Part shown: positions 26,352 to 59,208 of the stretch, in pieces
How positions within the stretch are numbered: position 1 is the stretch's first letter
Layout: each line of letters begins with the position of its first letter
Origin: Bradyrhizobium erythrophlei
Lineage (GTDB): Bacteria; Pseudomonadota; Alphaproteobacteria; Rhizobiales; Xanthobacteraceae
Direction: 5' to 3'
DNA length: 64,000 nucleotides
Assembly (NCBI RefSeq): GCF_900142985.1
Contig: NZ_LT670849.1
Coordinates: forward strand, 7,022,501-7,086,500
Program-made: the position numbers and the translations under genes
The notes under the pieces: model-generated
Seen by the model: the letters and a program-made list of their open reading frames with translations, nothing else
Database searches by the model: none
What the model was told of the DNA's origin: nothing

Positions 26352-27203
26352 CTACTTTTTCGCAGGCGACTTCGGCGCGACCAGCTGGCCGCGCGAAGAA
26401 AATTCCTGCCATTCCGTGGTCCAGCCGACCTGTTGCTTGTGGCTTCGTTTGCCCTGAAGGGCAAATGTCGCGCCTTGCGGATCGCTGCAATAGGCGATCC
26501 TTACCCCGCCGGGTAACTCCGCGTCGTTGTATCCAGCCCGGCCGCCTGCCGCGCTCACACGCTCGACCGCGGCATCGATGTCCTCAACGTTAACGTAGAA
26601 CAGCCAGAACGGAGGCGTTGGGTCGCTGTTCTTGAGTGCGCCGGCGACGATTTGTCCGCCCGCCGAGAAAGTCAGATAGGCGTTGGCGAAACGATCCTCG
26701 GTGTCGTCTCGCTGCCAGGCTAAAACCTCGCGGTAGAAAGTGCTTTGCTTCTGCAAATCGGTTGCGAAAAGCTCGTTCCAGCCGAAGCGGCCTGGCTTTG
26801 CTGAATCCTCCGGTTGTTGCACTGCGACCTGCGGCTGACCAATCACCGCAAACAAAGCGCCTTCTGAGTCAGTGACAACCGAAATGCGGCCGATATTACT
26901 GTCGGTGGGCGGCACGTAGACCGCACCGCCGAGCCGCCTGATTTGATCGGCCGCGGCATCGACGTGCTTTACGCCGACATAGCCCATCCATCTTGGCCGC
27001 GCGCCCATTTTCAGGCCCTCCGGCGGCAGCTCCAGCAGACCTGCCGTGGCGTGATCACCGGCCTTGAACAGCGTGTAGGGCACCCGCGACGTCGACGAGG
27101 GCAGCGCACTCCAGCCGACCACATCGCGGTAGAATTTAGTAGCCGCGGCCATATCGGTGGTGAGCAGCTCGTACCAGGTGAAATATGCAGGATCGATGTT
27201 CAA
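26352..27203 (-). CDS. Two-domain VOC (glyoxalase-like) protein, TTG start
   Basis: This 283-residue protein holds two vicinal-oxygen-chelate domains, about residues 8-125 and 140-260. Each begins with a FTWYELLTTD- or FGWNELFATD-type segment and a FYRDVVGW- or FYREVLAW-type helix. Such tandem VOC proteins resemble a CFP-30/27 kDa antigen type and have no fixed reaction. The start is TTG at 27201-27203, behind a perfect AAGGAG ribosome site 8 nt away; there is no usable ATG. It converges with opgC. Confidence 0.8.
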   Translation of the reverse strand: MNIDPAYFTWYELLTTDMAAATKFYRDVVGWSALPSSTSRVPYTLFKAGDHATAGLLELPPEGLKMGARPRWMGYVGVKHVDAAADQIRRLGGAVYVPPTDSNIGRISVVTDSEGALFAVIGQPQVAVQQPEDSAKPGRFGWNELFATDLQKQSTFYREVLAWQRDDTEDRFANAYLTFSAGGQIVAGALKNSDPTPPFWLFYVNVEDIDAAVERVSAAGGRAGYNDAELPGGVRIAYCSDPQGATFALQGKRSHKQQVGWTTEWQEFSSRGQLVAPKSPAKK

Positions 27204-27562
27204 ATCGGCGTCTCCTTCGCTCCTGCAAAAACCATAACAGTTCAGCCCTACCGGCCCCTCGACGTCGATGCAAGATCAGGGATGACCAACGTCCGATTGT
27301 GGACATAACGCAGCGAGGAGGCGCTGATGTTGCTCTGCACGCAGCTCGGGTTTTCTGAAAGCCGGAGAAGGTTTTTCCAACATTGCAGATGATGAACGAA
27401 GCCTGAATAAACAGCCATTCAAGCACGGTTCATAAACGTGAAATCTTTGCAAGAACAGGGACTCTGAGGTTCTCGTGAACCTTCCTCAGCTTGCGGGCGA
27501 CCAACCCATGCAGTAAAGTTATTCTACTCGAACCGCTAGCGAGAAAATGGAGGATTTGAATA
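27204..27562. other. Intergenic region before the RiPP precursor gene
   Basis: These 359 bp separate the divergent VOC and precursor genes. A sigma70-like pair (TTGCGG at 27491-27496, 17 nt, TAAAGT at 27514-27519) lies about 45 nt before the precursor ATG and could be its promoter, but matches are partial. A 21-codon frame at 27327-27392 has a GAGGAGG ribosome site and no further support. No other gene is visible. Confidence 0.4.
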
Positions 27563-27955
27563 ATGGCAACGAAGAAGCGTGTTAAGGCCGCTTTGCCCGC
27601 GCTGGGCGCAGCTGGCTTGACGTTTTCGATGGTGGGCGGTGCGTCGGCGGCAGCAGTGCCCGCCAACGATGCGACGCAAGCAACAAACTATTCTCCCAAT
27701 CAACAGATCACGCTCGGCGAAGAAGAAATCGCCGATGTGAGCCTCGCCACGTTCTACGTCTTCGACAAGGAAAGCACTGCTGCCGCAAAGGACGGTAACA
27801 TTCAGCTCGCGCGCGGCTGCGGATGCGGTCGTGGTTGCGGTGGTCGTGGTTGCGGTGGTCGTGGTTGCGGTCGTGGATGCCGTGGATGCGGCGGCTGCGG
27901 CGGCTGCGGCGGCGGCTGGTGTCTCTCCTGGGGCGGTTGCCGGCCCTGGTGCTAA
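27563..27955 (+). CDS. LAP/TOMM RiPP precursor peptide with signal-like leader and Cys/Gly/Arg core
   Basis: This 130-residue peptide is the likely substrate of the modifying enzymes encoded next. Residues 1-29 look like a Sec signal (KKRVK, then LPALGAAGLTFSMVGG, then ASA). Residues 47-71 form an acidic leader segment (ITLGEEEIADVSLATFYVFD) that probably binds the partner enzyme. From residue 85 the core has 12 Cys and many Gly/Arg (GCGCGRGCGGRGC...) and ends WCLSWGGCRPWC. YcaO/SagB enzymes would turn such Cys into thiazoles. A GGAGGA ribosome site precedes the ATG. The precursor call rests on core composition and neighbours, and maturation is inferred. Confidence 0.85.
   Translation: MATKKRVKAALPALGAAGLTFSMVGGASAAAVPANDATQATNYSPNQQITLGEEEIADVSLATFYVFDKESTAAAKDGNIQLARGCGCGRGCGGRGCGGRGCGRGCRGCGGCGGCGGGWCLSWGGCRPWC
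27839..27868. repeat. Tandem 15-bp repeat in the precursor core
   Basis: Two perfect copies of GGTGGTCGTGGTTGC lie side by side and encode the pentapeptide GGRGC twice. Shorter 9-bp copies (GGCGGCTGC) follow near 27889-27906. In-frame slippage here would change the number of modifiable Cys in the core. Confidence 0.75.
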
Positions 27956-27995
27956 CCGAGGTCACTCTCGTCGCGTGATCAACGCGAATAATCGT

Positions 27996-28023
27996 GGCCG
28001 GGTTCGACAATGTCGACCCGGCC
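27996..28023 (+). terminator. Strong hairpin after the precursor gene (attenuator candidate)
   Basis: GGCCGGGTTCGAC (27996-28008) pairs with GTCGACCCGGCC (28012-28023) across a 3-nt loop, with one bulged T. It lies 41 nt after the precursor stop and 175 nt before the cyclodehydratase gene. The tail (TATTCATGTGT) is only partly T-rich. Such a hairpin could let most transcripts stop after the precursor, making more peptide than enzyme. Confidence 0.55.
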
Positions 28024-28198
28024 TATTCATGTGTACGTCAGGTGAGCGTCGCCGCGCCCGTGCTCGCTCACAAATGACGATGACGCCGAATTCCCGCCTC
28101 GCTAAAAGACCTCCTGACGCCGGCTGGATCAAGGGATGCTCCCGATCCGCGAGAAACTCCGCAGGCCGGCCTGGCAGGCAAGCTCCGTGTGCTGATTC

Positions 28199-30490
28199 AT
28201 GAAAGCCAAACGCAAGACCGTTCCATCCAAGCCAAAGCGCAAGGCCGCTTCCAGCCGCCGCGCCGCGAAAGACATCGCGCAGTTCGCTCCCAATTTCACG
28301 GTCTACGTACTACCGCCCGATCAGGTTTGCTTCTATTCCGAAGACCGCAAATTCTTCCTGCATGGTGAGCTTTATTGCGAGCTGGCCACGGCGATCGGCA
28401 AGGGTGGAAAAAGCCTGCAACAGCTTGCGGTCGAGTTCGGAAAACGTTTTCCGCCCGAGAAGGTCGAAGAAGCCCTCAAGCGCCTGATCGAACGCCGCTA
28501 TATCGTCGAAGCTTCTCCCACATCGAACACGGTTCAGGCCGCCTATTGGGCGAGCCTTGGCCTGCCGCCGGGCATGGCCGAACAGAACCTCGCCAACTGC
28601 CGCGTGCGCGTCGAGGCCGTCGACGTTCAGGGCGCCAAGGAATTCACCAAGGCACTTGCCGAATTGGGAGTCCATGTCGTTATCGGCCGCGGCGCGGCCG
28701 ACCTGACGATCACACTCGCCAACGATTATCTCGAACCAAGACTTGCCGAACTGAACAAGCAGCATGTGTCGGACGGCACGCCATGGCTGCTGGCTCAGCC
28801 GTCCGGCGCCTTTCCCCTGGTCGGACCGGCCTTCAATCCGGGCAAGGGTCCGTGCTGGACATGTTTGTTCGACCGCATGATCCGAAATCGCGAGATCAAG
28901 GGATTCCTCGACCGCACCGACGCACAAGCTGTCGCCTCGTCGCCGCTGATGCACAGTCCGCTCGGTCAGGGTGCGATTCCGTTCGCTGCGCTCGAAGTCG
29001 CCAAGGCGATCGCCAGCGGTTTTCGCACCGACCTGAACAACCACATCATCAGTCACGATTTGCTGGGTTCGACTACGGTCAAACACTACGTCGCGCATCG
29101 CCCGCAGTGCCCGACCTGCGGCAACAAGAAGCTGCGGGATCCGCGACGCCGGCCGACCCCGATCGAACTTGGCGCCGGGCTCAAGCTGACGATGACCAGT
29201 GGCGGATTCCGCTCGGTGTCGCCGCGCGCGACGGTAGCGCGCTTTCGCAAGCATGTCAGTCCGCTGACCGGCGTCGTCAAAAAACTGGAGCGGATCGAGG
29301 CCGACCTTCCTCTGAATACGAATTTTTTTGCGAACCACAACTTCTCCGGACCGGCGATGAATGTCGACATGCTCAGGGAGGGACTCGCCGGCGGAAGCTT
29401 CGGCAAGGGTTCGACCGCCGAGCAGGCGGAGGCCAGCGCGCTGATGGAGGCGATCGAACGCTATTCCGGTATTTTCCAGAGCGACGAAGTCCGGATCAGC
29501 AAACGCTTCACCGATTTTGAAGCCGGGGAAGCCCTTAATCCCGAAGATGTGCTGCTCTTCAGCGACGCGCAATATCGATCGCCCGAGGCAGAGCCTGACG
29601 ACTCTCATCCTGTCCCTGACCGCTTTGACCCGTCGGCTAAGATGGAGTGGTCACCCGCCTGGTCGCTGCGCGACCAGCGTTTCCGCTATCTGCCGACTAG
29701 CATGCTGTACTTTTTCTACGGTGGCGGTCCGGGGCACTACGCCGCGGATTCTAACGGCTGCGCCGCCGGCAACACCCTTCAGGAGGCGATCGTCCAGGGC
29801 TTCCTCGAGCTCGTGGAGCGCGATGCCTATGCTATCTGGTGGTACAACCGCTCGCCGCGCGAGGAACTGGACCTCAGCCAGTTCGACGATTCCTACGTTC
29901 AGGACTTGCGAAGCCAGTTGAACGACCGCGGCCGCAAGCTTTGGGTGCTCGATATCACCAGCGATCTCGGCGTCCCGACCTACGTCGCGATGGTGCACTG
30001 GATGCAGGACGGGCACGAAAACATCGAGTTCGGCTCCGGCGCGCATTTCGACAGCCGTATCGCATTGTTGCGTACCTTGACTGAACTCAACCAGTTTCTT
30101 TCGATTGGGCTGATGAACGGTGGGACAGGCGAAAAGCCGAGCCTCGACAACGTCACGCCGCTGGAGTTGAAAAATTATCCGTTCCTGGTGCCAAACGGTC
30201 GTCCTGCCGCGCCGATCATCAAGGGTTCTAAATTCGGGCTTCTCGACGACACCCGCAAACAGGTCGATGCTTGTGTCGAGATCGCCCGGCGCGCGGGCCT
30301 CGATTTTCTCGTCCTCGACCAGACGAGGCCGGACGTCGAAACATCCGTCGTACGTGTGATCGTTCCCGGCTTACGACACTTCTATCGCCGCTTTGGGCCG
30401 GGGCGCCTCTATGATGTTCCCGTCAAGCTCGGCCTGCGCGACACGCCGATAACGGAAAGTGAACTGACGCAATACCTGCCTCACAGCTAG
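28199..30490 (+). CDS. Fused leader-binding/YcaO TOMM cyclodehydratase
   Basis: This 763-residue protein joins an E1-like/RRE partner domain (about 25-330) to a YcaO domain (about 350-763). The first part has two CxxC pairs, CWTC near 220 and CPTCGNKK near 304, as in the zinc site of SagC-like partners. The YcaO ATP site is seen as ALMEAIERYSG (about 414-424), NGCAAGNTLQEAIVQGFLELVERDA and WWYNRS. Such fusions use ATP to cyclise Cys/Ser/Thr of a bound precursor into azolines. The C-terminus (LRDTPITESELTQYLPHS) lacks the PxPxP end of classical members. The gene precedes sagB by 15 nt. Confidence 0.92.
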   Translation: MKAKRKTVPSKPKRKAASSRRAAKDIAQFAPNFTVYVLPPDQVCFYSEDRKFFLHGELYCELATAIGKGGKSLQQLAVEFGKRFPPEKVEEALKRLIERRYIVEASPTSNTVQAAYWASLGLPPGMAEQNLANCRVRVEAVDVQGAKEFTKALAELGVHVVIGRGAADLTITLANDYLEPRLAELNKQHVSDGTPWLLAQPSGAFPLVGPAFNPGKGPCWTCLFDRMIRNREIKGFLDRTDAQAVASSPLMHSPLGQGAIPFAALEVAKAIASGFRTDLNNHIISHDLLGSTTVKHYVAHRPQCPTCGNKKLRDPRRRPTPIELGAGLKLTMTSGGFRSVSPRATVARFRKHVSPLTGVVKKLERIEADLPLNTNFFANHNFSGPAMNVDMLREGLAGGSFGKGSTAEQAEASALMEAIERYSGIFQSDEVRISKRFTDFEAGEALNPEDVLLFSDAQYRSPEAEPDDSHPVPDRFDPSAKMEWSPAWSLRDQRFRYLPTSMLYFFYGGGPGHYAADSNGCAAGNTLQEAIVQGFLELVERDAYAIWWYNRSPREELDLSQFDDSYVQDLRSQLNDRGRKLWVLDITSDLGVPTYVAMVHWMQDGHENIEFGSGAHFDSRIALLRTLTELNQFLSIGLMNGGTGEKPSLDNVTPLELKNYPFLVPNGRPAAPIIKGSKFGLLDDTRKQVDACVEIARRAGLDFLVLDQTRPDVETSVVRVIVPGLRHFYRRFGPGRLYDVPVKLGLRDTPITESELTQYLPHS

Positions 30491-30505
30491 CGGGACGCAT
30501 TCGCC

Positions 30506-31990
30506 TTGGCCACGCCGAAGAAAAAAGCCAGCGGCCGCAAGACGGCGACGCCGGTCCTCACCGCCCACGTGGTTAAACACGTCGTGCTAGAGGCACAGGC
30601 GGACGGCAACGTCGTTGTGCGTTTTGAAGGGTATACGCAAGGTCTGGGCAAGTTCGCGCCGGCTATTTCGAAGCGTATCGCCGAGCTCCGTACCGGGCTG
30701 CCGCTGGCTTCGATTGCGAGCAGCCGCGCCGCCGACACGGAGATCAACCTCCTGGTCCGGCGATTGGCACGAAGCGGTCTTCTGGAATACCGCCTCGGAC
30801 CAGCGCGCTGCGGTCAGGCCAGCGTCGTGATCGAGCCGCAGATTGCAGATTACCGGCCGCAAATCTCGAAAGTCGCCAACACCGATACGATCGCGCTGTC
30901 GCGATTTGCCTATCTGCGACGGCGCGGCAAGGAGATGGTGCTGGAATCGCCGCGAGCCAGCGCCCTGTTCAGGATTGCCGATCCGAAAATAGCTGCGGCG
31001 CTTGCCGCACTCTCGCAACCGCAGAAGATCGGCCAGTATCGAAAGGAACGCGACTTTCCGGGGCTGGAGGTTTTGGGACTGCTTGTAGACTGCCAGATCC
31101 TGTTCAAGCTGAAGGCCGCCGATATCGATGGCGCACGCCCATCGGAAGGCGATCCGAACCTCGTGCTGTGGGATTTTCACGATCTTCTGTTTCACACCCG
31201 CAGCACCGAGGGACGTCAGGCCAATCCGTTGGGAGGCCTCTACACTTATTCCCGTCTCATGACGCCGCTGCCCGCCGTGCGGCCGCCATGGCCGGGACAG
31301 GCGATCGAACTGAATAGCCCGGGCTCGCCGCCGCCCTCTCCCTTTGCAGCGCTGCTCAACGCCCGACAATCTGTGCGCGACTTTGACGACGAGCATCCTA
31401 TCACCTTGGCCGAACTGGGAGCTTTTCTGCAGTCCGCTGGGCGGGTTCGCGGCAAGTGGACGGCGCCCGCCGATATAGAAGACGGGCAAGGCCCGGACGT
31501 TTCGTACGCTTCCCGCCCCTATCCTTCGGCGGGCGCAGCCTATGAGTTGGAGCTCTATCTTGCGGTCCACAAATGCGAGGGACTATCTCGCGGATTCTAC
31601 CACTACGACGCGGATCGACATGCATTGACGCCGATCGAAGCCCGCCCAGCCGACCTTGAGGCGCAGCTTTACGACGCGGAATTTGCCATTGGCGCCTCAA
31701 ACGCACCGCAAGTCTTGATCGTCATTGCGGCGCGGTTCGGCCGCGTCACCTGGAAATACAGTTCGGTCGCCTATTCGCTGATCCTCAAGGACGTCGGCGT
31801 GCTGACGCAAACCCTCTATCTGGCGGCGACGGACCTCGGCCTCGGCGGCTGCGCGATCGGCACCAACAATATCGACCGGTTCGCGCGGATGACCGGATTG
31901 GACTTCGCCATCGAAGGGCCCGTTGGTCAATTTGCCCTCGGCCGCGCCGCCGGGCGGCGCCCGGATGGCGATTCATTCGAGCCAAAGTAG
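30506..31990 (+). CDS. SagB-type FMN dehydrogenase (azoline oxidation), TTG start
   Basis: This 494-residue protein ends in a nitroreductase-like FMN domain (about 250-490): SPFAALLNARQSVRDFDDEHPITLAELGAFLQSAGRV, RPYPSAGAAYELELYLAVH and LGLGGCAIGTNNIDRFARMTG. It would oxidise azolines to azoles on the precursor. The N-terminal half (about 20-230) has the winged/partner-like region seen in long SagB proteins. The start is TTG at 30506, 15 nt after the cyclodehydratase stop; the next ATG is far inside. Confidence 0.9.
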   Translation: MATPKKKASGRKTATPVLTAHVVKHVVLEAQADGNVVVRFEGYTQGLGKFAPAISKRIAELRTGLPLASIASSRAADTEINLLVRRLARSGLLEYRLGPARCGQASVVIEPQIADYRPQISKVANTDTIALSRFAYLRRRGKEMVLESPRASALFRIADPKIAAALAALSQPQKIGQYRKERDFPGLEVLGLLVDCQILFKLKAADIDGARPSEGDPNLVLWDFHDLLFHTRSTEGRQANPLGGLYTYSRLMTPLPAVRPPWPGQAIELNSPGSPPPSPFAALLNARQSVRDFDDEHPITLAELGAFLQSAGRVRGKWTAPADIEDGQGPDVSYASRPYPSAGAAYELELYLAVHKCEGLSRGFYHYDADRHALTPIEARPADLEAQLYDAEFAIGASNAPQVLIVIAARFGRVTWKYSSVAYSLILKDVGVLTQTLYLAATDLGLGGCAIGTNNIDRFARMTGLDFAIEGPVGQFALGRAAGRRPDGDSFEPK

Positions 31991-32144: not shown

Positions 32145-33137
32145 ATGATGAGGATGCGACGAGGCCTGACGTTTGGCGCGGCCTTTGCCGCCCTCGTTTT
32201 CGCAAGTAATGTCCGGGCAGAGCAGATCGTCGTCAGCAATTATGGCGTCGCCGCCAACGGCATGCCGTATGCGGTCGCCATGGAGAAAGGATTCTTCAAG
32301 GAGGAAGGCGCCGACGTCACCGGCATTCTCTCGTCCAATGGCGGCGGCACCACGATCCGCAACCTGCTAGGTGGCAATTTGAGCTATGGCGAGGTCGACC
32401 TCGCCGGTACAGTGACGGCGATCGAGCAAGGCAACGACCTTCATATCATCAGCGACAACGTGCTGACCGTCGGCGAATTCGTCTGGGCGGTGAAACCGAA
32501 ATCGCCGATCAAGGCGCTTGCGGACTTCAAGGGCCACAAGATCGGCTACACCAATCCACGCTCGACCAGCCAAGCGCTCAATGTGCTGCTCATGCAGACC
32601 ATTGGTCTCACCCAGGCCGACGTGACCCCGACCAAGGTCGGCGGCTTTGGCGAACAGGTCGTCGCCCTCGATATCGGCGCCATCGACGTTGCAACGCTTG
32701 CCGATCCAGTCTGGTCGAAGAACAGCGCCAAGCTACGCATCGTCGTTCGCGCGACCGACACGCTGCCTCCGCTATGCAACGTGATCGGGGTTGCGACCGG
32801 CAAAGCCATTGCCGAACACGGTGACTTCCTGCGCGCGGTGTTGCGGGCCCGGCGCAAGGCTGTCGAATTCATGTATTCCCATCCCGACGAGGCCGGTGAC
32901 ATCGTCGCCAAGGTCTACGACCTCGACCCGACCATCGCACGCCAGGCCGTGCACAACCTCACCGCCATGGCACCCGGCACCACCATTCCATATTGGGGAA
33001 CCGGTCGCTTCGACATCAAGGGGATGGACGGCATGATCGCGGCCCAGCGCAGTGTCGGCGCCTATTCGGGTGCACCGAATTGGGAAAAGATGATCGACCG
33101 CAGTTTCCTCGCCGACGATCTGAGGAAAGACTACTAG
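32145..33137 (+). CDS. NitT/TauT-type ABC substrate-binding protein
   Basis: This 330-residue protein has a signal peptide (FAALVFASNVRAE) and the NMT1/SsuA-like binding fold: VSNYGVAANGMPYAVAMEKGFFKEEGADV, GHKIGYTNPRSTSQALN and an IGAIDVATLADPVWSK segment. It probably feeds the ATPase and permeases encoded at 33300-35600. The ligand is unknown; sulfonates, taurine, nitrate and thiamine precursors are all handled by this family. The stop TAG (33135-33137) lies inside the CTAG end of a hairpin cassette. Confidence 0.87.
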   Translation: MMRMRRGLTFGAAFAALVFASNVRAEQIVVSNYGVAANGMPYAVAMEKGFFKEEGADVTGILSSNGGGTTIRNLLGGNLSYGEVDLAGTVTAIEQGNDLHIISDNVLTVGEFVWAVKPKSPIKALADFKGHKIGYTNPRSTSQALNVLLMQTIGLTQADVTPTKVGGFGEQVVALDIGAIDVATLADPVWSKNSAKLRIVVRATDTLPPLCNVIGVATGKAIAEHGDFLRAVLRARRKAVEFMYSHPDEAGDIVAKVYDLDPTIARQAVHNLTAMAPGTTIPYWGTGRFDIKGMDGMIAAQRSVGAYSGAPNWEKMIDRSFLADDLRKDY

Positions 33138-59131: not shown

Positions 59132-59208
59132 TGGTCGGGGCAGCTGGATTCGAACCAACGACCTGCAGTACCCAAAACTGCCGCGCTACCAGGCTGCGCT
59201 ATACCCCG
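59132..59208 (-). tRNA. tRNA-Pro (TGG anticodon)
   Basis: On the minus strand this 77-nt segment, including the encoded CCA at 59132-59134, folds as a tRNA. The acceptor CGGGGTA pairs with TGCCCCG (one T-G pair), the D arm is present, and the anticodon stem GCAGT/ACTGC holds the loop TTTGGGT, giving anticodon TGG. The T arm has GGTTCGAATCC. The 5' end at 59208 lies 3 nt from a hairpin cassette. Confidence 0.95.

Follow-up and report, generated by a model that had tools for sequence, protein, structure and literature searches.

A candidate polythiazole peptide family of Bradyrhizobium and other Hyphomicrobiales with a VOC partner gene and precursors in trans

Introduction

What would be made by a compact gene cluster that pairs a peptide ending in a cysteine-rich tail with a fused YcaO cyclodehydratase and a SagB-type dehydrogenase, and how would its product leave the cell? 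The cluster lies at positions 27563-31990 of a window of 64,000 nucleotides (the whole stretch of DNA that was analysed; G000:C1:7022501-7086500), part of a single 7.5 Mb contig whose closest matches among named organisms belong to Bradyrhizobium (84% identity in YcaO). An earlier note on this DNA had read the cluster as a minimal three-gene pathway for a linear azol(in)e-containing peptide or thiazole/oxazole-modified microcin (LAP/TOMM), a class of ribosomally synthesized and post-translationally modified peptides (RiPPs). At the level of genes our finding is solid: the cluster is a four-gene unit with additional precursors encoded in trans, and is larger than first described. The unit probably represents a subfamily of LAP/TOMM systems in Bradyrhizobium and other Hyphomicrobiales, composed of voc, precursor, ycaO and sagB, with a polythiazole peptide that would be Sec-exported and bound by the VOC protein. 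We infer the chemistry of the product, its Sec route, the role of the VOC protein and the biological use of the peptide with a certainty that falls in that order.

Results

Three open reading frames (ORFs) on the forward strand account for the cluster, as had been claimed: the precursor gene (27563-27955), ycaO (28199-30490) and sagB (30506-31990). The ycaO product is a protein of 763 residues in which a leader-binding domain is fused to a YcaO cyclodehydratase (C-D fusion; TIGR03882, TIGR03604, PF02624). It scores 140.6 bits against TIGR03882 (cut-off 36.9) and 240.6 against TIGR03604 (cut-off 219.25), and aligns to LynD (4v1t) with an E-value of 5e-153 across residues 26-757, a range that takes in the N-terminal domain, the two CxxC pairs and the motifs of YcaO. 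In LynD itself, the leader is bound by the N-terminal domain and the residues acted on are Cys. The sagB product, with a TTG start and 494 residues, is a SagB/ThcOx-type azoline oxidase (TIGR03605, 176.5 against a cut-off of 78.4; PF22767 ThcOx; PF00881) that aligns to the SagB-type dehydrogenase 8pz5 and to CyaGox 5lq4 with an E-value of 1.3e-64, its WKY motif being aligned with that of 8pz5. These matches bear out the enzyme identities given in the earlier note, and the cluster combines the two features by which we recognize a LAP/TOMM system, a YcaO cyclodehydratase with a leader-binding partner domain and an adjacent precursor with a leader and a Cys/Ser/Thr-rich core. Microcin B17 and trifolitoxin had been offered as the nearest comparison; we ruled this out, as the enzymes are closest to the cyanobactin proteins LynD/TruD and CyaGox instead. 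A common polybasic tail on the precursor, YcaO and SagB was considered as a family trait and dropped, being strong in the window and weak in many YcaO proteins from outside Bradyrhizobium.

The precursor gene (27563..27955, + strand) encodes 130 residues, which include GCGCGRGCGGRGC and end in WCLSWGGCRPWC. An alignment of 48 diverse precursors (A1), from which the broken copy L002 was excluded, resolves four zones. The N-terminus, which is basic and hydrophobic, is followed by a linker that varies between members, then by an acidic motif with the consensus ITLGEEEIADVSLATFHLFDKEN, and finally by a Gly/Arg/Cys tail. The acidic motif reads ITLGEEEIADVSLATFYVFDKE in the window (residues 49-70, 27707..27772), and residues E54, E55, D58, L61, T63 and F64 are invariant in 48/48; it is a probable recognition site for the domain of the fused enzyme that resembles a RiPP recognition element (RRE). 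We placed the start of the core, by choice, at R84 (residues 84-130, 27812..27952), which gives 47 residues with 12 Cys and a single Ser; counted from G85, the tail has exactly the 46 residues and 12 Cys reported previously.

We extracted 89 precursor ORFs from the fetched loci, with genomes duplicated across collections (e.g. L009/L039) so that the rows are not independent. Leaving out L002, the tails have 11-21 Cys and 0-3 Ser+Thr, the cores are 28% Cys, and 926 of the 1379 tail Cys are immediately preceded by Gly. Ring formation, if any, would therefore fall almost wholly on Cys, and the contrast drawn earlier with the Ser/Cys-mixed core of microcin B17 holds. The tails terminate in CCxSWGxCRxC or a near variant; the strict pattern is found in 84 of 90 rows, and of the six without it, two are the window copy, which entered the set twice, one is the broken L002, and three (L012, L019 and L087) show small variations. 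For the window precursor, no Pfam or NCBIfam model scores above cut-off, and TIGR03601 gives no match at E<=0.01. Eight of the 48 relatives match TIGR03601 weakly (best E 6e-4), and none matches Pfam at E<=0.01. A weak window match to NF053514 (BLB8/JUQZ-1; E 0.04, below cut-off) was dropped as a chance match, JUQZ-1 being a bacteriocin of Brevibacillus in the available part of its description. An AlphaFold2 model of the precursor was uninformative (mean predicted local distance difference test score, 49).

By homology with the cyanobactin enzymes, a pathway can be proposed in which the N-terminal winged-helix domain of the fused heterocyclase, which resembles an RRE, would hold the invariant acidic motif, as suggested by LynD, and the YcaO domain, using ATP, would cyclodehydrate the Gly-Cys-rich tail to thiazolines that the SagB/ThcOx-type flavoenzyme would then oxidize to thiazoles. 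The product would very probably be a polyazole or polythiazole peptide.

Relatives of the cluster were found by scanning genome contigs with the YcaO protein, which yielded 59 loci. The order precursor-ycaO-sagB occurs in 55 of these, and the four exceptions end inside or near the operon (L052 and L095 without the precursor, L087 and L090 without sagB). Because the same order recurs in 55 loci and the other four records are cut, the three-gene arrangement is more than chance. Precursor and enzyme frames are open in most relatives with complete records, which removes the concern, raised in the earlier note, that the cluster might be degenerate in all of them. Precursor relatives at E<=1e-13 are present in 57 of 391 family genomes, 41 of them in one genus; five further genomes, whose precursor E-values ranged from 3.9e-4 to 8.7e-4, were excluded as probable chance matches. 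Wider samples, which overlap and for which at most 10 candidates per genome were scored, gave matches to A1 at E<=1e-5 in 7/397 genomes of the order (five of the genus, plus G596 and G620 from outside the family), 1/385 of the class (the window's own genome) and 4/398 of the phylum (three of the genus, plus G620). All four genes are also carried by plasmid pHY1 (L178) of Methylovirgula sp. HY1 (Beijerinckiaceae), where the PLSDB table lists no gene for the precursor. In these samples, therefore, the cluster family does not extend beyond the order of the window and shows some horizontal movement. In the draft genome G596, ycaO is split across two overlapping frames (L152, 8535-10695), by assembly error or decay. 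A different cluster was seen on plasmid pCSC3H3 of Thalassospira marina (L180), with LanM, a thiocillin-family RiPP, a 38% identical fused YcaO, a P450 and an S53 peptidase.

The three-gene account, with its nearly Cys-only core, is well supported as far as it goes, but it overlooked a fourth conserved gene. This gene, voc, lies divergently upstream of the precursor (26352..27203, - strand) and encodes a two-domain, Rv0577-like protein of the VOC superfamily (glyoxalase/bleomycin-resistance fold; 283 residues). It adjoins the precursor in divergent orientation in 55 of the 57 precursor-bearing loci; at L084 it is downstream of sagB, and the record of L048 stops 170 bp upstream of the precursor, so that VOC cannot be assessed there. 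VOC matches at E<=1e-45 occur in 66 of the 391 family genomes, a set that includes all 57 with a precursor and 9 of the 334 others. Within the genus, the precursor genomes and the VOC genomes are the same 41. The nine genomes with VOC alone have copies 39-42% alike, and the stretches fetched from them contain none of the other three genes; a tree (unrooted) splits 48 cluster VOCs from 10 unlinked ones with a support of 0.995. Across 66 loci, VOC and YcaO identities are correlated with a Mantel r of 0.93 (maximum of 0.23 in 999 permutations). When pairs are grouped by YcaO identity, VOC identity is lower than SagB identity in 268/276, 543/595 and 325/358 of them in the three lower bands and in only 43/97 in the top band, the pairs being non-independent.

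Could VOC simply be a bystander, retained through synteny? The genus has a single VOC arrangement, in all records showing it, as such an account would predict. Outside the genus, however, where 15 clusters were fetched (partly the same contigs as the YcaO-scan loci), ten have VOC after sagB in convergent orientation, four have it divergent upstream and one cannot be assessed (L119, contig end), which gives two arrangements within the family. The convergent form includes L111, where VOC lies 1.2 kb after sagB, and L152 of G596, outside the family. The outer neighbours also vary: beyond VOC, 20 of 57 loci have an OpgC gene at least 83% like that of the window (a further locus, L056, has one that is 39% alike, and some records stop earlier). 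In addition, the cluster-free genomes of the genus have no VOC at E<=1e-45, and VOC stands beside the cluster on the Methylovirgula plasmid, in another family. We regard the bystander explanation as very improbable.

We propose that the co-inherited VOC protein would bind the thiazole peptide, most likely for self-protection or as a carrier before export. Three observations detract from this proposal. The cluster of G620 (L151) has no nearby VOC, and elsewhere in that genome there is a weak partial match with an E-value of 3e-11. The window VOC carries N for H at position 143. Finally, Trp occupies positions 10, 72, 142 and 200 in 48/48 cluster VOCs, and the same Trp residues are found in 10/10 unlinked homologues; the Trp-lined pocket was consequently dropped as a cluster-specific sign of thiazole binding. 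The same four positions bear on an alternative in which VOC would modify the peptide as a tailoring enzyme, comparable to AbxF in an antibiotic pathway, rather than serve as an immunity protein or carrier. By glyoxalase motifs, we take them to be the usual metal-ligand positions, and their occupation by Trp argues against catalysis of this kind, as does the location of VOC on the strand opposite the enzymes in both arrangements. A tailoring role therefore appears unlikely to us, and binding of the peptide is the role we prefer.

The N-terminus of the precursor suggests how the peptide might leave the cytoplasm. Residues 1-31 (27563..27655, + strand) resemble a signal peptide by hand-made criteria (a basic n-region, 15-30 consecutive uncharged residues and A-x-A), and 87 of the 89 precursors share these features; among nine window proteins to which the criteria were applied, only the solute-binding protein at 32145 passed. 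The genes that recur throughout the flanks of the 60 records (59 loci and the window) are voc, precursor, ycaO and sagB only, and no exporter or protease was found in the shared unit in those flanks. We suggest that the N-terminus would be a Sec-type signal, from which signal peptidase would remove the first ~30 residues, so that the modified peptide would exit the cytoplasm without a dedicated exporter. Sec export of the precursor peptide is in our judgement moderately likely.

Other features of the loci pull in a different direction. Conservation of the N-terminus in A1 (G15, A17, G18, L19, S22, G25, A27 and A29) exceeds the needs of a signal peptide, and the N-terminus may therefore be a recognition or membrane element. 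In one Bradyrhizobium lineage, a binding-protein-dependent, peptide-type ABC permease is convergent after sagB in 11/60 records (an example is L091:11753-12901), a family-5 solute-binding protein is found in 8/60, and an oligopeptide-type ATPase group, which clustering merged with the window's own ABC ATPase, accompanies it in seven. A trypsin/PDZ protease recurs near the operon in 5/60 records. The presence of such genes in single lineages makes another export route possible, namely that the N-terminus is an ordinary long leader and that a different exporter and protease process the peptide; other RiPPs are known with unlinked proteases. Nevertheless, the ABC and protease genes are missing from the flanks of other lineages, and the solute-binding protein suggests import. 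The signal-like layout of the 87 precursors also speaks against a plain leader, and in the L151 precursor a Cys (AGAGC) stands at the place of A-x-A, which is compatible with, though no proof of, a lipoprotein-type signal. We consider the long-leader explanation a serious contender that is nonetheless less probable than Sec export.

The window precursor is not the only one in its genome. L125 (G000:C1:6893202-6893510, - strand) keeps the leader and has the Cys-rich tail out of frame, and is probably decaying; L126 (G000:C1:5814873-5815319, + strand) is intact, with 149 residues and 11 Cys, and has no enzyme gene in the 18 kb fetched. Precursor matches reach five per genome in other genomes. 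Fifteen stretches around lone precursors gave no match to ycaO, sagB or voc, and at most two of them have any one neighbour in common. A single enzyme set would probably also serve such precursor genes scattered through the genome. On a conjugative plasmid of Bradyrhizobium sp. Ash2021 (L179), a precursor annotated as a hypothetical protein is flanked by insertion-sequence transposase genes, and no enzyme gene is annotated within the 8 kb fetched; this is a possible route of spreading.

Some of these scattered genes share an upstream element with the cluster. An inverted repeat, TTCAT-N-AA-N-ATGAA, lies 124-176 bp ahead of the precursor ATG in 56/56 divergent regions (55 loci and the window). 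The best match to the 16-mer, which was selected after inspecting the same regions, is 11-16/16, against a mean of 9.1 and a maximum of 13 in base-shuffled regions. The palindrome is exact before three of the 15 lone precursors (L132, L137, L138), has one mismatch before two (L128, L129) and is absent before ten (<11/12 positions); it also precedes the second precursor of G105 (L147). We infer that a common regulator may act at this site. The window copy of the palindrome GTTCATCAAGATGAAC (27428..27443, + strand, by 16-mer matching) is degenerate (12/16), which counts against our main reading, and the palindrome is absent ahead of the precursors in most out-of-genus clusters. In 16 genomes of our choosing, 11 with the cluster and five without, 23 exact sites comprise 14 before intact precursors, one before a remnant and eight elsewhere, two of the latter in cluster-free genomes, and a backward control pattern gave one site in total. 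The palindrome is thus enriched before precursors, and the idea that it marks them exclusively was rejected. At L175 (G381) the palindrome is followed by the first ~20 precursor residues and then by unrelated sequence, a precursor remnant.

A GC-rich hairpin between precursor and ycaO (27996..28023, + strand), part of a fold of 27956-28198 with a z-score of -2.57 for the whole stretch, is a possible 3' end or stabilizer. A terminator scan found none, and a sigma-70 scan of 27100-28300 gave one weak site on the reverse strand. The single Rfam match in the window is a tRNA (59135-59208, - strand). Neighbouring genes, from a scan of 16 selected proteins between 16606 and 38623, encode a TRAP transporter, a biotin-dependent carboxylase, NDUS4, OpgC, an ABC transporter with an NMT1/SsuA-like binding protein, an MFS protein and a sugar-acid dehydratase. 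We also scanned with Pfam 20 representatives of the other recurrent neighbour groups, nine of which had no match and may be spurious ORFs.

Discussion

The earlier description of this system was correct in its gene identities but did not include the signal-like N-terminus, the precursors in trans, the upstream palindrome or the kinship with LynD/TruD and CyaGox. The last of these invites comparison with the cyanobactins, which the cluster resembles in its C-D fusion, aligned with LynD as described, and in its SagB-type oxidase with a ThcOx N-domain. It differs from them in its one long Gly/Arg/Cys core, its signal-like N-terminus and its VOC partner. PatA/PatG-type (subtilisin) proteases, which in cyanobactin clusters carry out cleavage and N-to-C macrocyclisation, were absent among the 16 window proteins and the 20 neighbour-group representatives, which is as far as the search extended in the genome, and the protease group of five records is trypsin/PDZ, not subtilisin.

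Heterocycloanthracin and sonorensin (TIGR03601) share the Gly-Cys core repeats, and in the available text of PMC4603692 their precursor genes may sit far from the enzymes. According to the same text, however, the heterocycloanthracin system requires an F protein alongside a truncated cyclodehydratase, whereas the window cyclodehydratase keeps its N-terminal domain, and the window precursor is not recognized by TIGR03601. Phazolicin and microcin B17 are likewise azole peptides of Gram-negative bacteria. In composition and gene layout, the terms of this comparison rather than the precursor sequences themselves, the window cluster differs in its almost Ser/Thr-free core (Ser+Thr 0-3) and its fused cyclodehydratase, where a microcin B17-type system has separate C and D proteins and a Ser/Cys-mixed core.

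The layout of the precursor recalls the bufferins, MNIO-modified RiPPs whose Cys-rich precursors carry an N-terminal Sec-type signal; the accessible portion of PMC12452194 describes Sec signal peptides as highly unusual in bacterial RiPP precursors and Sec use as demonstrated only for bufferins. A bufferin-like function might then be envisaged, in which the Sec-exported Cys- or thiazole-rich peptide stays in the envelope and binds a metal such as copper, with VOC as a tailoring enzyme or chaperone. The pHY1 cluster has a multicopper oxidase gene on one side and a cbb3 oxidase operon on the other, which fits this idea. Yet the shared unit has no MNIO or DUF2063 gene, its enzymes being YcaO and SagB, and copper-type neighbours were seen at one locus, in Methylovirgula, most other flanks not being annotated gene by gene. 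Precursor copy number and core length also vary by genome, which to us is more like an antagonistic peptide. We therefore judge a metal-binding function improbable and continue to favour an exported polythiazole peptide bound by VOC.

Among the papers listed by literature searches, a coverage that excluded supplements and most subscription papers, we recognized none describing a family with voc, precursor, ycaO and sagB, so that earlier notice is possible. In the part of the TOMM survey PMC4603692 that is available, the main text does not contain 'rhizobi'; PMC8120280, as far as accessible, describes TfuA-type YcaO clusters in Bradyrhizobium with other precursors, and the corresponding text of PMC10708946 gives only a count, of 47 RiPP-like clusters across 44 Bradyrhizobium genomes. 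A more far-reaching proposal, which we put forward tentatively and hold to be doubtful as a whole, is that this is the first YcaO/azole RiPP family with general Sec export, with VOC as a dedicated thiazole-binding immunity or carrier protein and with several precursors, some under a shared operator, fed in trans to one enzyme set.

A YcaO family with the bufferin layout, if true, would unite two separate RiPP logics, and the tight link to VOC offers a testable thiazole-binding partner. The genus with 41 cluster genomes comprises soil bacteria and legume symbionts, and among its relatives are organisms that make azole peptides; one of these peptides, phazolicin, is active between rhizobia according to the available text of PMC10128002. 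The product of the present cluster would, in the least certain step of our proposal, act on competing soil bacteria.
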